Below, piece by piece: positions 1 to 14,032 of a stretch of DNA of 48,480 nucleotides. Source of the stretch: Rubripirellula sp. (lineage in GTDB: Bacteria; Planctomycetota; Planctomycetia; Pirellulales; Pirellulaceae); assembly GCA_022425745.1 (NCBI GenBank), contig JAKMEW010000137.1, forward strand, positions 1 to 48,480. The letters run 5' to 3'. A program made the position numbers and the translations under genes. The notes beneath the pieces were generated by a model that did not search any database, was not told the DNA's origin, and saw only the letters and a program-made list of their open reading frames with translations. The first letter of the stretch is position 1; each line of letters starts with the position of its first letter.

Positions 1-2028
1 ACACAGAGCACTGATCCATCTCAATGGCTAGAAAGAGACTTCTGGACAACCGTCGATGGCAAACCGAGCGTCGGGCACTGGGATTTCTCTGGTGATGAGA
101 TCCAACTTACGCATCCTCGTGGTGGCCCCGGTAGTCTTCTCAGTCCACCACTGCCACCCAACTTTGAACTGGAATGGGAATGGAAAATTGAAGCAGGAAC
201 AAACTCCGGACTTAAATATCGCGTGCATAAGTCAGATGGTCGATGGCTCGGTCTTGAATATCAGATCATTGACGAAAAGATGACGAAATTTGGTAAGGCG
301 AGCACAGCATCTATTTACGATTTAGTTGCACCTCAGTCTGGTAAACCAATCCTACCGCCCGGTCAGTGGAATCACTCGAAAGTAATTGCCTCTGGCAGCC
401 ACGTTTCACACTACCTCAATGGGGCGTTGATTTCAGAGTGTGTCACTGTTGGGGCAACGTGGGAAGAAAAATTGGCAAAAAGTAAGTTTTGGGCGGTACC
501 CAATTTCGCCTCCGAGCAAAAACCACAACGGATCATGCTTACGGATCACGGCGGCAAAGCATCATTCAGAGATTTTTCCTTTAGAGTAATTGAATCATTC
601 GAACAAAGTGCACAACAATCTCATGCTCCGTATCTGGCAAACGGAATAAAAACAAGTTGGGTAACAGAGAACTCTGCAACCGTATGGTCGCGAACCACCA
701 AAAGTTTCGCAATGAATTCGGGAGGCGCAAACTTTCTCGACATACCAGAATCAAAACTTCTTTCGAAGGAACTCACGCTGTCGGAGCAAGATTTCGCCAA
801 ACTACAAATGCCACCTGGGCATGACTTAGATCAAATGCTTGGAGCTTGCCCAGGTCTTCAGGGCGAAATCCGACTGAGTTATTTTCCCGAAAAACAAAAT
901 AAAGCAATTAGCACCACTGACTGGGTGAAGACGGATGCTACTCGAGACTTTACCCATCAATGGAAATTGACCGGACTACTTCCTGACCGTCGATATGCAG
1001 TTGTTGTGGAAGCCCGACCAATTGATGAAACGACCGTCTCATCTGTACTACGTGGGCATTTCCAGACGGCTCCCGCATCTAATGCCTTAAGGCCCATCAC
1101 CTTTTGCATGACAACGTGCCATGATTTTATCAGGCGTGATGATGGCATGAATGGCCACAAAATCTATCCAAGCATGAACAAACTCAATCCTGATTTTTCC
1201 ATTCATGCGGGCGACATTGAATACTATGACAAGCCTTTTCCTTGGGCAACTTCCAAAGAACTGATGCGGTTTAAATGGAATCGAATTTTCGCTCTTTCTA
1301 GTAATCGTGATTTCTATTCAAACCACACAGCCTATTTCCTCAAGGATGATCATGACACTCTTAGAAATGATTGCTGGCCGGGTCAAACCTATGGATCCGT
1401 AACCTTTGAAGAAGGAAAACAAATCTTTAATTTGGAACAGTTTCCTAGCATCCAACAGCGATATCAAACCATTCGATGGGGGAGAGATCTGCAAGTTTGG
1501 TTTTTGGAAGGACGAGACTACCGAAGCCCAAACAACATGCCGGATGGCCCGGCAAAGACGATTCTAGGATCAGAGCAAAAACAATGGCTGTTTAAGACGA
1601 TTGAAGAGTCAGAATCACGATTTAAATTAATCATTAGCCCAACACCAATCATCGGTCCGGACCGCAAAAACAAACGCGATAATCACGCGAATGCTCCATT
1701 TACGCATGAAGGCGAAGAAATCCGGAGTCGCCTATCAAGGCATTCTGGAGTCATCATTTTCTGCGGTGACCGACACTGGCAATATGCATCCAAGGACCGA
1801 GATACCGATCTCTGGGAATTTGGCTGTGGCCCAGGTAGTGAGAAACATCAGCTCGGCTGGAGAGAGGGTGAACTACACCCATTACATCAGTTCCTCCGTG
1901 TCGCAGGAGGTTTCTTATCGGGCCAACTGACCTATGGCCGTGACGATTCTGCGTCACCTACTCTAACACTCCGTCATCACAAAGTTTCAGGCGAAGTGGT
2001 AAGTGAATTCAATTTTGCAACGCAATAA
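1..2028 (+). CDS. DUF1080 (3-keto-disaccharide hydrolase-like) domain fused to PhoD-like metallophosphatase; 5' end cut by the window edge
   Basis: Frame 1 is open from base 1 (...DFWTTVDGKPSVGHWDFSGDEIQLTHPRGGPGSLLSPPLPPNFELEWEWKIEAGTNSGLKYRVHKSDGRW...) into the listed ORF 223..2028; the GTG at 223 is probably internal. C-terminal half has PhoD-like motifs (FSIHAGDIEYYD, FLKDDHDTLRND, IIFCGDRHWQYAS). Confidence 0.85.
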   Translation, partial: TQSTDPSQWLERDFWTTVDGKPSVGHWDFSGDEIQLTHPRGGPGSLLSPPLPPNFELEWEWKIEAGTNSGLKYRVHKSDGRWLGLEYQIIDEKMTKFGKASTASIYDLVAPQSGKPILPPGQWNHSKVIASGSHVSHYLNGALISECVTVGATWEEKLAKSKFWAVPNFASEQKPQRIMLTDHGGKASFRDFSFRVIESFEQSAQQSHAPYLANGIKTSWVTENSATVWSRTTKSFAMNSGGANFLDIPESKLLSKELTLSEQDFAKLQMPPGHDLDQMLGACPGLQGEIRLSYFPEKQNKAISTTDWVKTDATRDFTHQWKLTGLLPDRRYAVVVEARPIDETTVSSVLRGHFQTAPASNALRPITFCMTTCHDFIRRDDGMNGHKIYPSMNKLNPDFSIHAGDIEYYDKPFPWATSKELMRFKWNRIFALSSNRDFYSNHTAYFLKDDHDTLRNDCWPGQTYGSVTFEEGKQIFNLEQFPSIQQRYQTIRWGRDLQVWFLEGRDYRSPNNMPDGPAKTILGSEQKQWLFKTIEESESRFKLIISPTPIIGPDRKNKRDNHANAPFTHEGEEIRSRLSRHSGVIIFCGDRHWQYASKDRDTDLWEFGCGPGSEKHQLGWREGELHPLHQFLRVAGGFLSGQLTYGRDDSASPTLTLRHHKVSGEVVSEFNFATQ

Positions 2029-3142
2029 GGGAAGCAAGTCCAATACGTTCTAGTTGCCAATGTATCGTCCCAATCCCCGCATAGATTCCGATGTCTTCTC
2101 GGTAATCCGCGGCATTGCATACACCGACCAAGCGACCATATTGATCAAATAGCCCGCCACCACTACGACCATCAATTGGTGCGCCTTGGATTTCATAGTT
2201 TGATAAGCCAAGATGCTGATCGTATTTATTCACACCTGTGATGCGAGTATCTAAGCGTGTTGGCTGGCTGCCTCGATCGCATCCAAAACTAAATACCGGA
2301 TCGCCACTTCTCGTCGCGTTATACAACGCACCGATCTTTACCGGCTCAACTGTTTCCTTTGTTCGAATTGAAACCAGCGCGATATCGCGTTTCTCAGCGT
2401 CATAGTCGATAATCTTCCCGAGTACCGTTTTGCATGTTCCACTACGAAAAATATCTACCTCAACTCGTGCGGTAATTCCTGCATCTCTAAATAAATGCCC
2501 GCATGTCAGAATCAACACCTCGCCTGCTCGAGAATCGATCATTGTCCCAGTACCAACACCATAACCGCTCGAGTCGTAAACTCGCAGTCGAACAGTTGCG
2601 GACTTAGCTCGTTCAATTGCGTGAGCTGTTACGCGGTTCGGCATCACTTCGCTGTATCGATCCACTCCGCCCGATACCAGGCCGCCTACTGAATTTGAGA
2701 TTACACGTTCATCCCGCAAACGGCTTTGGGTTTTTGTTGCATGGAGTTCATGTATTGAGCGAGTGGGCACGAGTGTCCTCTCTCGTGTGATCAGAAGCGC
2801 TCGCTTCAATTGATCAGAACTCTGCACCCCGACTAGTCTTGTTACTTCCTCACCACCGCAGAGAACAATAAAAGTGGGGGTCAACCGCACTCCAAAACGG
2901 GCAGTAAGGAAAGGCTCTTGAAGCACATCCACCTTTCTCACGGGAGTGCCCTCTGCCACCAACCGAGTCAGAGTAGGATGAATCGTCTTACAAGCACGAT
3001 TTTGTGAGGATTCAAAACAAAGTAGCACCGCGTCGTTTTGTTCTGCCAAACCAATGATTGGAAGCTCAATCGCAAAAACAAAAAAAACCATCCATATTCG
3101 GAAGTATTCCACGCCAATTCCTCCTTGAAATGGCACTCTCAT
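2009..3142 (-). CDS. Secreted trypsin-like serine protease with N-terminal thioredoxin-like domain
   Basis: N-terminal hydrophobic segment; thioredoxin-like AVLLCFESSQNRACKTIHP...RFGVRLTPTFIVL; trypsin motifs ILTCGHL (His), RDIALV (Asp), DGRSGGGLFDQYGRLVGV (Ser). Confidence 0.8.
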   Translation of the reverse strand: MRVPFQGGIGVEYFRIWMVFFVFAIELPIIGLAEQNDAVLLCFESSQNRACKTIHPTLTRLVAEGTPVRKVDVLQEPFLTARFGVRLTPTFIVLCGGEEVTRLVGVQSSDQLKRALLITRERTLVPTRSIHELHATKTQSRLRDERVISNSVGGLVSGGVDRYSEVMPNRVTAHAIERAKSATVRLRVYDSSGYGVGTGTMIDSRAGEVLILTCGHLFRDAGITARVEVDIFRSGTCKTVLGKIIDYDAEKRDIALVSIRTKETVEPVKIGALYNATRSGDPVFSFGCDRGSQPTRLDTRITGVNKYDQHLGLSNYEIQGAPIDGRSGGGLFDQYGRLVGVCNAADYREDIGIYAGIGTIHWQLERIGLASLIALQN

Positions 3143-6924: not shown

Positions 6925-7938
6925 TCAATTTAGGTTCGCGCGGGCCTCTTCCAGCATTTCCAGCATCTCAGGCAATATCAGCGAGGCAGGAAGTAGGTAA
7001 CTGACTACTCGCCCAGCGCGGGCAATATTGATTCCAATTGCTCGCCCCTGTGAATCGAGAACGGGTCCTCCACATTCTTCAGGGTCAAGCACGGTATCGT
7101 GTTGGATGACACGGTCAAACCCACTTAGGCGGATGTTTCTTGGCCCATTAACCTTGGCATCACTCGCGGACTCCTGGAGCATGCCCATATCACGAATCTG
7201 CGCATCAATATCGATTGAGTCGAACTCGCTAAGCTCATTTGGACGGAGAATCGTAAGAGTAACGTTCTCTCCCGGATACATTTGTTTCAAACGACTAATC
7301 ACAGCATCACGGCTATCTTTTGCTTCACCATTCACCGCAACAATTCTGTCCCCTGGATTGATCCCTGCGATAGCCGCTCCAGATTCTGGCAACACCAATT
7401 GGACCAATGCTCTTCCCTTTGCGTCATCTTCCAGCATCACTCCAAGCCTGCCTTGATGTTTAATAGGGCGTTCCTTAACACCTACGACGCCCAATCCAAT
7501 AGGCCGACCTGTTCTCCCTATCGTGATGAGAAAACTCGCTATTTCTGGCGAATAGGCGTCAAAGACTAAGGGTTCAAAAGAGATATCGGCATCAACATGA
7601 AGTAGCACCAAATCATTGCGGCGCCGGACTGCTGAAACACGAGCGGGGAAAAGACGCCCGTCAGACAGGCGAACGCGAATCGGATCACTCGTCAATTCGC
7701 TCCGTTTAGTTATTACGAAACCGTCAGCGGACACCACGGTACCCAAAGCCACCGGCGTGCCACCGCACAGGATTTGCACCACCGAATTTTGAACTTGCTC
7801 GCCAAGTGGCCGAAAAAGATCCAGTACCTCCGGATGGTCTCTTCTCTCGTCAGCCAGAATATTGCCTTCAGTCAATGCACATTGAACTAGCAATGCAGTT
7901 GCAGCAAGAAGGTTTCGTGTGATGAACTTCATAAGCAC
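6925..7938 (-). CDS. HtrA/trypsin-like pseudoprotease with internal PDZ domain
   Basis: Order: ADGFVITKRSEL (His-site region), RRNDLVLLHV (Asp site), LITIGRTGRPIGLGVVGV, PDZ RLGVMLEDD...LPESGAAIAGINPGDRIVAVNGEAKDSRDAVISRLK..PGENVTLTILR, then FDRVIQHDTVLDPEECGGPVLDSQGRAIGINIA (Ser-site region). Confidence 0.8.
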   Translation of the reverse strand: MLMKFITRNLLAATALLVQCALTEGNILADERRDHPEVLDLFRPLGEQVQNSVVQILCGGTPVALGTVVSADGFVITKRSELTSDPIRVRLSDGRLFPARVSAVRRRNDLVLLHVDADISFEPLVFDAYSPEIASFLITIGRTGRPIGLGVVGVKERPIKHQGRLGVMLEDDAKGRALVQLVLPESGAAIAGINPGDRIVAVNGEAKDSRDAVISRLKQMYPGENVTLTILRPNELSEFDSIDIDAQIRDMGMLQESASDAKVNGPRNIRLSGFDRVIQHDTVLDPEECGGPVLDSQGRAIGINIARAGRVVSYLLPASLILPEMLEMLEEARANLN

Positions 7939-7974: not shown

Positions 7975-9141
7975 TCAGGGATTACCAGCACGACCAATCT
8001 CAACGACCACCACGCGAGTCCGACCATCACGATTGACGAGCAACCGTACTCTCTCTCCCGGCATGGTATCTGCAACCGCGTCTTGTAACGACTTAAAATC
8101 AGTTAGCAGTTTATCGCCAAACTCTTCAACAATATCTCCTTCTCTCAGACCGCCTCGATCTGCCGGAGAACCAGCTCTGACCACTTCAATGACCGCTTTC
8201 TCGGAAGATGGACTGCCACGAACGCCTAGAATTGGCTTGAATCCCGGCAGATACCCCCATGATTCGCCCTGCTGCATGCGTTCCCATGAATCCGCATAAT
8301 GATTTATCGGCACATGCAAATTATCAGCCACATCGTTTCCAATTCGACTATGAACAGCAATCAATTCGCCTGCTAAGTTAAACAGCGGCCCACCGCTGTC
8401 CCCGCCGATTAAGGCGCAATCGGTGACGATCGCAAGATCTCGAATAGCTAAAATTCTACCAACTCGTGTTACGGAACCCCTCTGCTGATCGTAGCCCCCT
8501 GGATGTCCCGTTGCGACACACCACATTCCAGGAATTAATTGCTCACTAGAACCTAACGATGCATGAGGCCACGGCTCACCATTATTCTGATCCGGATTGA
8601 TTTTCATGAGTCCAGCATCAACGCTACGATTCATACCCAATGACTTCGCTTTTACAACTCGGCCATCTTCTAGAAAAATCTCTGCATTCATGCCCGGACG
8701 CATCGCGACATGGGCAGCGGTGAGTACATAACCACTCTTCGTGATAATCACACCACAGCCTTTGGCTGCTCCAATTTTCACACCCACAGTACAAGCAGCA
8801 ACCGCTCGAGCTACCTCACTCTGTTGAACCTCTAAAGCCCTCAATTGGCTAACACTCGTTGGTACGCCACCCTTACTGAGAATCGGTAATAGAGAGTCAT
8901 CAACGTCGCATCTGGTACCATCCCCATTGAGTTCGCCTAGAGTCTCTGCAATTGACCCATGATTCTTCTGAAAAACGAACTGGCTCTGCCGCTGCGTTTT
9001 GTTCGCTTGCGTTTGAAACTGGCCAAAAAGCTCACCTGAAGTGCTGCACACCAACAAAAATATCGAAACGTACTTCAATCCAAAGCTCATTGGCGGTCGC
9101 CGCACCAAAGCTCTTTTCAAACTCGGATAAAGATTAATCAC
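7975..9141 (-). CDS. DegP/HtrA-type serine protease with C-terminal PDZ domain
   Basis: SGYVLTAAHVAM, VDAGLMKI, LIGGDSGGPLFNLAGELIAVHS; C-terminal PDZ VVRAGSPADRGGLREGDIVEEFGDKLLTDFKSLQDAVADTMPGERVRLLVNRDG. Confidence 0.9.
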   Translation of the reverse strand: MINLYPSLKRALVRRPPMSFGLKYVSIFLLVCSTSGELFGQFQTQANKTQRQSQFVFQKNHGSIAETLGELNGDGTRCDVDDSLLPILSKGGVPTSVSQLRALEVQQSEVARAVAACTVGVKIGAAKGCGVIITKSGYVLTAAHVAMRPGMNAEIFLEDGRVVKAKSLGMNRSVDAGLMKINPDQNNGEPWPHASLGSSEQLIPGMWCVATGHPGGYDQQRGSVTRVGRILAIRDLAIVTDCALIGGDSGGPLFNLAGELIAVHSRIGNDVADNLHVPINHYADSWERMQQGESWGYLPGFKPILGVRGSPSSEKAVIEVVRAGSPADRGGLREGDIVEEFGDKLLTDFKSLQDAVADTMPGERVRLLVNRDGRTRVVVVEIGRAGNP

Positions 9142-11108: not shown

Positions 11109-12113
11109 ATGACCGACGCATCATCACCTCCACCAACAGACACGAATCGGTACTTAGGTATCGATGTGGGTGGAACAACTATCAAGTTTGGTTTATGCGA
11201 CAGCGATGGAACCATACGATCTAAAGCTTCCACACCAACGGACGTGCTACCAGAACCTGAAGCGGTGATCCGGCATGGAATGGAGTTTGCCCACGCATCC
11301 TTAGGTGCATCTGAAACGCTAACTGGCATTGGACTCGCAGTCCCAGGCGTACTAGACACCTCCACTTGGAGCCTTAAGGAAGTCGTCAATCTCCCGCATT
11401 GGACAAATCGTCCTTTGCTTGCGATTTTGGAGGAAGAATCCCAACTTCCATGTGCGGTGGTCAATGATGCTAATGCGGCTGCTTTAGCGGAACATCAGCT
11501 TCGTGGACTCACGGACGAATCATTGGCGCTGATTACTTTAGGAACGGGAATTGGCTGTGGTTTAGCGATAGGAGGAAGAGGTTTATCAGGAGATCATGGA
11601 TGTGCCGGTGAAATCGGCCATCTGGCAATCAATTTTTCAACAGATGCGAACCTATGCAATTGTGGGCGTCGTGGTCACCTCGAGGCCTACGCCGGAGCCC
11701 CTGCAGTAGTAGAACGAGCTAAAAAGGCATTCGAAAGCCTGAATGCGAATGAAATCCCCGATACGCTTCTTCAATCCGAATTGGACCCGCGTGACTTGTC
11801 TCGTGCCGCTGAAGATGGCTTCAAACCTGCACTAGAAATCATCATGGAAACCGGTACTTACCTTGGTCAGGCAATTGGAATTCTTGGCCAAGTGATCGAC
11901 CCAGCGGTAGTACTCTTAGGCGGAGCAATGACATTTGGAGGAGAAGCTAAGTCGACGGGCAGAGATTTCCTCAATGCAGTCAAGCAGGCGATGGTGAGCA
12001 CAACCCTTCAGCAGGTGGGGAGTCAGATGACCATCGATTACGCTTCTTTAGGTAATACGGCGGGGGTAACCGGCGCAGCACTGGTCGCACTTCAGAAAGG
12101 CCACAAATCATGA
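11109..12113 (+). CDS. ROK-family sugar kinase/glucokinase
   Basis: YLGIDVGGTTIKFGLCD; GIGLAVPG; VVNDANAAALAE; LGTGIGCGLAI; CNCGRRGHLEAYAG. Confidence 0.93.
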   Translation: MTDASSPPPTDTNRYLGIDVGGTTIKFGLCDSDGTIRSKASTPTDVLPEPEAVIRHGMEFAHASLGASETLTGIGLAVPGVLDTSTWSLKEVVNLPHWTNRPLLAILEEESQLPCAVVNDANAAALAEHQLRGLTDESLALITLGTGIGCGLAIGGRGLSGDHGCAGEIGHLAINFSTDANLCNCGRRGHLEAYAGAPAVVERAKKAFESLNANEIPDTLLQSELDPRDLSRAAEDGFKPALEIIMETGTYLGQAIGILGQVIDPAVVLLGGAMTFGGEAKSTGRDFLNAVKQAMVSTTLQQVGSQMTIDYASLGNTAGVTGAALVALQKGHKS

Positions 12114-14032
12114 CAATAAGTAACGAACGTATCCCAGCCCGTATCTTTTCTCGCGCATCTGAAGCGAGTATCGCTGCCGCGGATGAAATTGAGAATCTAA
12201 TTACGGAGCGAGCCGCTGCAGGTGAGATGTGCGTGCTCGGTTTAGTCACTGGCTCATCACCAACGGGCATTTATGAAGAACTCGTACGAAGACATCGGGA
12301 GGACGGTTTATCCTTCAAAAACGTTATCACCTTTAACTTGGATGAATTCTTCCCGATGCAGGCGCATGAGTTGCAGAGCGTAAACCGCTTCATGCACGAG
12401 CATCTTTTCGATCATATCGATCTCCCAGCTGAACAGATTCATATTCCAAAAGGAAACATCCCCAAAGAAGAAGTTTCTAGTTTTTGTCAGGACTATGAAA
12501 CGTCAATACGAGAAACTGGAGGTATTGACCTGCAAATACTGGGAATCAACCGAACGGGTCATATTGGACTGAATGAACCTGGATCGGATCGCAACTCCCG
12601 CACCCGCATGATTACGCTTGACGGCGTCACACGTACCGACGCAGCCAGCGATTTCTTTGGAGCGGAAAATGTTCCGAGGTACTCTATCACGCTGGGCGTT
12701 GGCACGATCTTAGAAGCGAAGCGCATTGTGCTGTTAGCGTTTGGTGAGGGCAAAGCAAAAATCATTTCCAAAACGGTCGAGGGTTATGCGACTTCGACTA
12801 TTCCCGCAACCTTTTTGCAAGATCACCCGAACACCACGTTCTTCCTCGATGAGGCAGCGGCATCAAATTTAACTCGGATTCAATCCCCTTGGCTACTCAA
12901 CGAAATCGAATGGGATCCTACCACCATACGTCGTGCCGTTATCGACCTTTCGGAAGACGTTGGAAAAGCAATCCTTAAACTGACCGATGCAGATTACAAC
13001 GAACAAGGCCTACAAGACCTACTCGCAGCACATGGAAGCGCATACGACATCAACCTGAGGGTCTTCAGGGATCTTCAATCCACCATCACAGGTTGGCCCG
13101 GAGGAAAACCCGAACACGAAAAAAAGATTGGTGATCGACCAGGTCATCGAGATGATATTTTTCCGAAACGTGTGATCATCTTCTCTCCCCATCCTGATGA
13201 CGATGTAATCTCAATGGGAGGTACACTAATTCGACTGGTTGACCAAGGCCATGAGGTTCACATTGCATATCAGACATCAGGAAACATTGCTGTCTTTGAT
13301 GAGGATGCTCTTCGATTCTCAGAATTTGTTGAGGACTTCTGTCGGGAATTCAAAATACACACGGAAGGCCTCGAACAACTTGAGACTCACGTTGATGAAT
13401 TCCTGCGGAATAAAATACCGGGCAACGTAGATAGTGAACCAGTGCAAAGAATCAAAGGGCTGATCAGAAGAGGTGAAGCAAGAGAAGGTGCACGTTGCTG
13501 CGGTGTACGAGATGAGCATCTACATTTTCTTGACCTGCCCTTTTACCAAACTGGCCGGGTCACAAAGAGTCCAATCTCGGATGCGGATCGACAAATCACG
13601 CTCGACCTACTCAGAAAAATAAAACCTCATCAGATCTATGCGGCAGGAGATCTTTCCGATCCTCATGGTACTCATCGAACCTGCTTGTCGGTAATTCTAC
13701 AATCCTGCACGGCGTGCCAAGACGAAGATTGGTTCTCTGATTGTGCGGTTTGGCTTTACCGTGGAGCGTGGCAAGAATGGGCGCCTCACGAAATCGAAAT
13801 GGCCGTTCCACTGAGCCCCCAAGAGGTCGCAAGGAAAAGAGCTGCAATCTTTAAACATGAATCACAAAAAGATCGCGCTCTTTTTCCAGGCTCCGATGTC
13901 CGTGAGTTTTGGCAACGCGCTGAAGCGAGAAATTCTGAAACTGCAAAACGATACGATTCGCTCGGACTAGCTGAATACGCAGCCATCGAAGGATTCGTGC
14001 AATGGGACGGTAAAACTGGACTAGACCTCTAG
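12110..14032 (+). CDS. nagB: Glucosamine-6-phosphate deaminase (NagB) fused to a PIG-L/LmbE-type deacetylase domain
   Basis: NagB motifs LGLVTGSSPTGIYEELV, FNLDEFFPM, LGINRTGHIGLNEPGSDRNSRTR; C-terminal PIG-L motifs IIFSPHPDDDVISMGGTLIRL and GDLSDPHGTHRTC. ATGA overlap with the ROK gene stop. Confidence 0.92.
   Translation: MTISNERIPARIFSRASEASIAAADEIENLITERAAAGEMCVLGLVTGSSPTGIYEELVRRHREDGLSFKNVITFNLDEFFPMQAHELQSVNRFMHEHLFDHIDLPAEQIHIPKGNIPKEEVSSFCQDYETSIRETGGIDLQILGINRTGHIGLNEPGSDRNSRTRMITLDGVTRTDAASDFFGAENVPRYSITLGVGTILEAKRIVLLAFGEGKAKIISKTVEGYATSTIPATFLQDHPNTTFFLDEAAASNLTRIQSPWLLNEIEWDPTTIRRAVIDLSEDVGKAILKLTDADYNEQGLQDLLAAHGSAYDINLRVFRDLQSTITGWPGGKPEHEKKIGDRPGHRDDIFPKRVIIFSPHPDDDVISMGGTLIRLVDQGHEVHIAYQTSGNIAVFDEDALRFSEFVEDFCREFKIHTEGLEQLETHVDEFLRNKIPGNVDSEPVQRIKGLIRRGEAREGARCCGVRDEHLHFLDLPFYQTGRVTKSPISDADRQITLDLLRKIKPHQIYAAGDLSDPHGTHRTCLSVILQSCTACQDEDWFSDCAVWLYRGAWQEWAPHEIEMAVPLSPQEVARKRAAIFKHESQKDRALFPGSDVREFWQRAEARNSETAKRYDSLGLAEYAAIEGFVQWDGKTGLDL

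Follow-up and report, generated by a model that had tools for sequence, protein, structure and literature searches.

Overall architecture of the nested pseudo-HtrA

The window, i.e., the whole 48,480-nucleotide stretch of Rubripirellula sp. DNA analyzed in this study, encodes a degenerate HtrA-type protein in which, according to the model, a PDZ domain lies inside the second barrel of the trypsin fold. This nested architecture is well supported, and we infer that the protein probably serves an active HtrA encoded just upstream as a regulator or adaptor. The gene (6925..7938, minus strand) is read as 337 amino acids from a GTG start; the ATG at 7932, which gives 335 amino acids, is the likelier start. 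The N terminus carries a short hydrophobic, signal-like segment, recognized by eye in the sequence, and the protein may be located in the periplasm.

Pfam assigns PDZ_2 to residues 163 to 240 (E = 2.3e-11) and splits Trypsin_2 over two separate stretches (E = 7.7e-11). The N-terminal trypsin part (residues 36 to 158; 7465..7833, minus strand) comprises a six-strand first barrel and two strands of the second barrel. It is followed by the inserted PDZ domain (residues 161 to 247; 7198..7458, minus strand), which is delimited by the Pfam PDZ_2 match and the model, and by the C-terminal trypsin part (residues 266 to 333; 6940..7143, minus strand), which holds Gln279-His280-Asp281, Cys289, a GGP motif, and NIARAGR, the last of which sits in a shortened L2 loop. 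The insert matches the PDZ profile PF13180 and has a carboxylate-binding loop, RLGV, at residues 164 to 167; the family form of this loop is xLGV/I, and Gly166 is present in 80/80 homologues. The first-pass annotation had described a PDZ domain nested in a degenerate HtrA trypsin fold, and the Pfam matches, the profile blocks, and the AlphaFold2 model all agree with this description. Two details need small corrections: the PDZ domain runs on to about residue 247, and the C-terminal trypsin piece starts at about residues 266 to 274.

The AlphaFold2 model calculated with alignment A2 (80 homologues) has a mean pLDDT of 92.5 and a pTM of 0.85, with scores above 90 for almost every residue past about position 32; in single-sequence mode, i.e., without homologues, the pLDDT is only 37. 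In the homologue-based model, six strands at residues 53 to 115 are followed by two strands (136 to 140 and 146 to 159), the PDZ domain (167 to 247), four further strands (274 to 280, 292 to 294, 300 to 307, and 313 to 317), and a C-terminal helix. This predicted order, 6 + (2 + 4) strands, is that expected for a chymotrypsin-type double barrel whose second barrel is broken after its second strand, and the profile matches DegP-like chains with an E value of 2.7e-47. The strand order and the model confidence together suggest that the two trypsin segments pack into one double barrel around the PDZ domain, which was the structural expectation attached to the original claim. In a Foldseek search against the PDB, HtrAs rank first (E = 9e-15), yet the TM scores are 0.23 to 0.40 and the RMSD exceeds 10 Å; since a sequential aligner cannot superpose a mid-chain PDZ domain on a trailing one, this search was given no weight as structural proof.

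Insertion of the PDZ domain at loop L3

The position of the insertion was located by aligning a profile of the 80 homologues with DegP-like proteases of known structure. Profile positions 51 to 149 correspond to chain residues 97 to 200, and positions 260 to 313 correspond to residues 206 to 264, while the middle of the profile (positions 159 to 253) aligns with the DegP-like PDZ domain at 290 to 385. The three blocks thus occur in an altered order relative to the DegP-like chains, and a whole PDZ domain takes the place of about five protease residues. The insertion falls between the equivalents of the L3-loop arginine and the glutamine that follows it: Arg157, which aligns with the L3 arginine, is kept in 76/80 nested homologues, and Gln279, which aligns with the glutamine of the activation cluster, is kept in 74/80. 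The PDZ-less homologue L070 also counts for this insertion site, its trypsin match being one continuous stretch (Pfam Trypsin_2 profile positions 3 to 144). A profile-profile comparison of the nested protein with the partner HtrA aligned only the N-terminal part and the PDZ domain, in sequential order.

Canonical HtrAs sense PDZ occupancy through the L3 loop, which spans residues 176 to 189 in DegS; the activation cluster includes Arg178/Gln191 in DegS and Arg187/Gln200 in DegP (PMC11642142). L3 has also been described in HtrA2, where the S276C substitution is located in this loop (PMC6172425). Because the PDZ domain of the nested protein is built into the L3 position, its peptide groove would be covalently joined to the element that relays PDZ occupancy in DegS, DegP, and HtrA2. 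The RLGV loop starts seven residues past Arg157, and a direct mechanical link between the two may exist.

Loss of the catalytic site and conservation of the scaffold

The His-Asp-Ser triad of active HtrAs is replaced by Ser, Asp, and Cys in nearly all members of the family. Ser80 occupies the His57 position (Ser in 79/80 nested homologues) and Cys289 the Ser195 position (Cys in 79/80, or 80/81 of a closer set), while Asp109, the Asp102 equivalent, is kept in 80/80; these alignments bear out the three residue assignments made from the window sequence alone. The oxyanion-hole glycine is lost as well: position 287, the equivalent of Gly193, is Gly in 0/80 homologues. Deep members have Gln or Ile instead of Cys289, and L146 has Val, with the rest of the motif left in place. 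The lost residues and the PDZ insertion are conserved across the family, so that the homologue check proposed with the original claim came out in its favor; Cys289 is not universal. As judged from the sequence, the catalytic site appears to be dead and to stay dead across the family; the original proposal, "inactive or re-purposed," draws strong support from the loss of His57, Gly193, and Ser195 together.

The scaffold is kept by selection, which, with the HtrA fold and the lost catalytic residues, fits an HtrA-type pseudoprotease such as MamO. Compared with the nearest species, the dN/dS of the nested gene is 0.021 overall, which indicates strong purifying selection, and 0.007 in the C-terminal half, where the dead site is located; more distant pairs are saturated at synonymous sites. 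Lys78, Gly150, His280, Asp281, Gly290, Pro292, Gly302, Asn304, and Arg310 are invariant in alignment A1. The members of A1 were not picked by motif, and this alignment is a fair test of Arg310 invariance; in the 80-locus set, the invariance of Arg307 and Arg310 is circular, since the set was gathered with the pattern G[IML]NIARA[GDS]R[VT].

Distribution and phylogeny

The family was found at E ≤ 1e-20 in 62/293 sampled genomes of the phylum. The named relatives among the best 80 of 285 matches are nearly all planctomycetes; the record labels outside this group, given as recorded, are Verrucomicrobia for L122 and only "bacterium" for L150. Full-length homologues with the same domain order occur across the taxonomic order. 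Because this order of domains is shared across the taxonomic order and the phylum, and because dN/dS is about 0.02, the nested arrangement is not a product of chance.

In a phylogeny restricted to the trypsin parts, 28/28 nested sequences form one clade and 28/28 partner HtrAs form another, both with support values of 100/99, and a tree of the PDZ domains alone gave branching without resolution. An origin of the nested protein as a duplicate of its partner is unsupported, as the two separate clades do not group together; the deep branches of this tree are weak.

Variable number of inserted PDZ domains

The count of inserted domains relied on profiles of each trypsin half, the nested PDZ domain, the partner, and the partner PDZ domain. 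One PDZ domain lies between the trypsin halves in nearly all members, two in L151 to L153, four in L154 and L155, and none in L070/L170. In the search of the phylum, the two-PDZ pattern was present in twelve genomes of one family. The multi-PDZ members group in one clade with the single-PDZ members L157 and L166, and the PDZ-less L070 is most simply explained by a loss, because it branches inside the single-PDZ members. L154:2253-5684 (1143 amino acids) and L155:4605-7838 (1077 amino acids) are single ORFs that contain an active HtrA, a PDZ domain, and a pseudo-HtrA with four PDZ domains in the same loop; Pfam finds five PDZ domains in L154, one of which is outside the insert. In genome G047, the PDZ-less copy (L070:6210-7091) lies beside an HtrA gene, and a separate PDZ-bearing copy (L046:78-1079) does not.

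Association of the nested gene with an intact HtrA

The gene for the partner HtrA (7975..9141, minus strand) precedes the nested gene on the same strand, with 36 bp between the two, or 42 bp if the ATG start is used. Its 388-amino-acid product has a trypsin domain with an intact His144-Asp175-Ser249 triad and a canonical C-terminal PDZ domain. Among 81 sequences (that of the window and L071 to L150), 69 nested genes lie directly downstream of an HtrA gene, and 5 nested sequences are fused to HtrA in one ORF. A single gene is at a contig end, and the remaining 6/81, i.e., six of 80 complete loci, are unlinked. Each of these six genomes has a strong match to the partner-type HtrA at another locus (E = 1e-100 to 1e-148; about 1e-46 at best for the next HtrA). 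An independent set contains further fusions (L035, L036, and L050, and the paralogues L055 to L058, L060, and L061) and one more nonadjacent nested copy (L046). This tight linkage or fusion to an intact HtrA, together with the variable number of inserted PDZ domains, is the strongest context for the nested protein, and neither was part of the first-pass annotation. Linkage and fusion show a functional association rather than physical contact.

The catalytic triad is intact in 74/74 partners. Trp207, His213, Arg226, Arg229, and Asn274 are invariant in the partner subfamily, Cys242 and His276 are nearly so, and the glutamine of the activation cluster is missing in most partners. An intersubunit disulfide bond between Cys289 and partner Cys242 (Cys in 71/74) is unsupported, because the close member without Cys289, L146, still has the partner cysteine.

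In L061:710-3331, an ORF of 873 amino acids, a nested pseudo-HtrA comes after two HtrA-type domains, and L069:4309-6314 is a fused paralogue split over two ORFs, with the C-terminal trypsin part in the second, possibly by a frameshift in the assembly or in the gene. The window itself encodes a second unusual HtrA-type architecture at 2009-3142 (minus strand), a 377-amino-acid protein in which a thioredoxin domain at the N terminus is combined with a trypsin-like domain; the latter apparently retains His, Asp, and Ser. At 12110-14032 (plus strand), a 640-amino-acid protein fuses a glucosamine-6-phosphate isomerase-type domain with a PIG-L/LmbE-type deacetylase domain.

Comparison with known systems

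In the S41 protease CtpB and in RseP/S2P proteases, PDZ domains are inserted within the protease unit instead of following it; the folds of these proteases are unrelated to that of HtrA proteases. In the HtrA/Deg family, the protease domain by definition comes first and is followed by zero to three PDZ domains at the C-terminal end (PMC3640471). Like DegS, DegP, and DegQ (HtrA, S1C), the nested protein combines a predicted trypsin-like double barrel with a PDZ domain and keeps the L3 arginine and the following glutamine. In contrast, its PDZ domain is inside the second barrel at L3 and not C-terminal, His57, Gly193, and Ser195 are absent, and L2 is shortened. The nested protein therefore fails as an active HtrA in its triad, oxyanion hole, and domain order, and it fits as a pseudo-HtrA.

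The nearest functional precedent is the MamO/MamE pair, in which a degenerate HtrA is likewise encoded with an active one. MamO is required for MamE-dependent proteolysis in the magnetosome, where it works through a C-terminal transporter domain, and MamE-MamO contact was not detected (PMC4794232). MamO belongs to another lineage, and the passages covered describe no PDZ domain nested in its protease domain. Plant Deg5 and Deg8 likewise illustrate the variation of PDZ content in the HtrA family, although no PDZ domain is nested there; Deg5 is PDZ-less, and its activity was not detected, but it keeps the catalytic triad and was crystallized as S266A (PMC3640471). Planctomycete HtrAs are classified in a survey that spans 7,852 microbial PDZ proteins, the sections covered of which describe no nested form (PMC6411480). 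The open-access literature covered yielded no mention of a PDZ domain placed within a trypsin-like domain, with subscription journals mostly outside the scope of the search.

Proposed role

Because the dead copy almost always adjoins or is fused to a working HtrA, a role as regulator or substrate adaptor is probable. The explanation we favor, with some reserve, is that the nested protein serves the active HtrA of the adjacent upstream gene as its dedicated regulator or adaptor subunit and acts by a relay through L3. The L3 element, as in DegS, DegP, and HtrA2, would communicate the occupancy of the PDZ domain to the active site in a neighboring subunit. The nested PDZ domain or PDZ array would bind exposed C termini or unfolded segments of envelope proteins, binding would shift the L3-equivalent Arg157 and the neighboring Gln279, and the pseudoprotease, in a putative complex with its partner, would then hand the substrate to the partner HtrA, switch it on, or both. 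MamO offers only a partial precedent, since it works through another domain and contact with MamE was not detected. Against a regulator, L070 has no PDZ domain, which means that the scaffold is able to persist without the sensor, and the two genes are apart in the unlinked loci.

The unlinked genes also fit a different explanation, in which the nested protein was repurposed as a stand-alone binder, with the PDZ domain and the altered S1 region (His280-Asp281, Arg307, and Arg310) binding a ligand or metal and with the tie to HtrA reflecting only shared regulation in an envelope-stress operon. The His-Asp pair and NIARxxR are among the best-conserved positions and lie in a loop pair beside the former S1 pocket, and MamO was repurposed for metal binding. 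However, fusions to HtrA in one chain recur, and the partner is retained in all six genomes of the 81-sequence set in which the two genes are unlinked, and we regard this explanation as unlikely on balance. Less likely still is an inhibitor or decoy that would keep the partner HtrA switched off as long as the nested PDZ domain is without ligand. Linkage, fusion, and the L3 geometry fit it as well as they fit a regulator, and contacts between the unliganded PDZ domain and L3 are autoinhibitory in DegS (PMC11642142); the present data do not separate activation from inhibition, but arrays of up to four PDZ domains are more suggestive of substrate capture. An active enzyme with a new mechanism, in which Cys289 would be the nucleophile aided by residues other than His57, is very improbable despite the near constancy of Cys289 and Asp109, and identity as a Cys protease was rejected, as His57 is Ser, Gly193 is lost, L2 is shortened, and the cysteine gives way to Gln, Ile, or Val in motifs that otherwise persist.

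As a tentative extension of the regulator explanation, the pair might form a two-component protease, composed of an active HtrA and a pseudo-HtrA whose L3 sensor is replaced by one to four PDZ domains, in which ligand would activate the partner in trans and the number of PDZ domains would set substrate range or avidity. Control of HtrAs is usually pictured as a C-terminal PDZ domain touching L3, which relays the signal to a neighboring subunit. Here, the subunit with a PDZ domain at the L3 position is a dead one, and this arrangement is kept across planctomycetes. The presence of 0, 1, 2, or 4 PDZ domains at one site provides a natural series for the relay from PDZ occupancy to L3, and the nested family offers a handle on whether pseudoproteases regulate HtrAs in trans.
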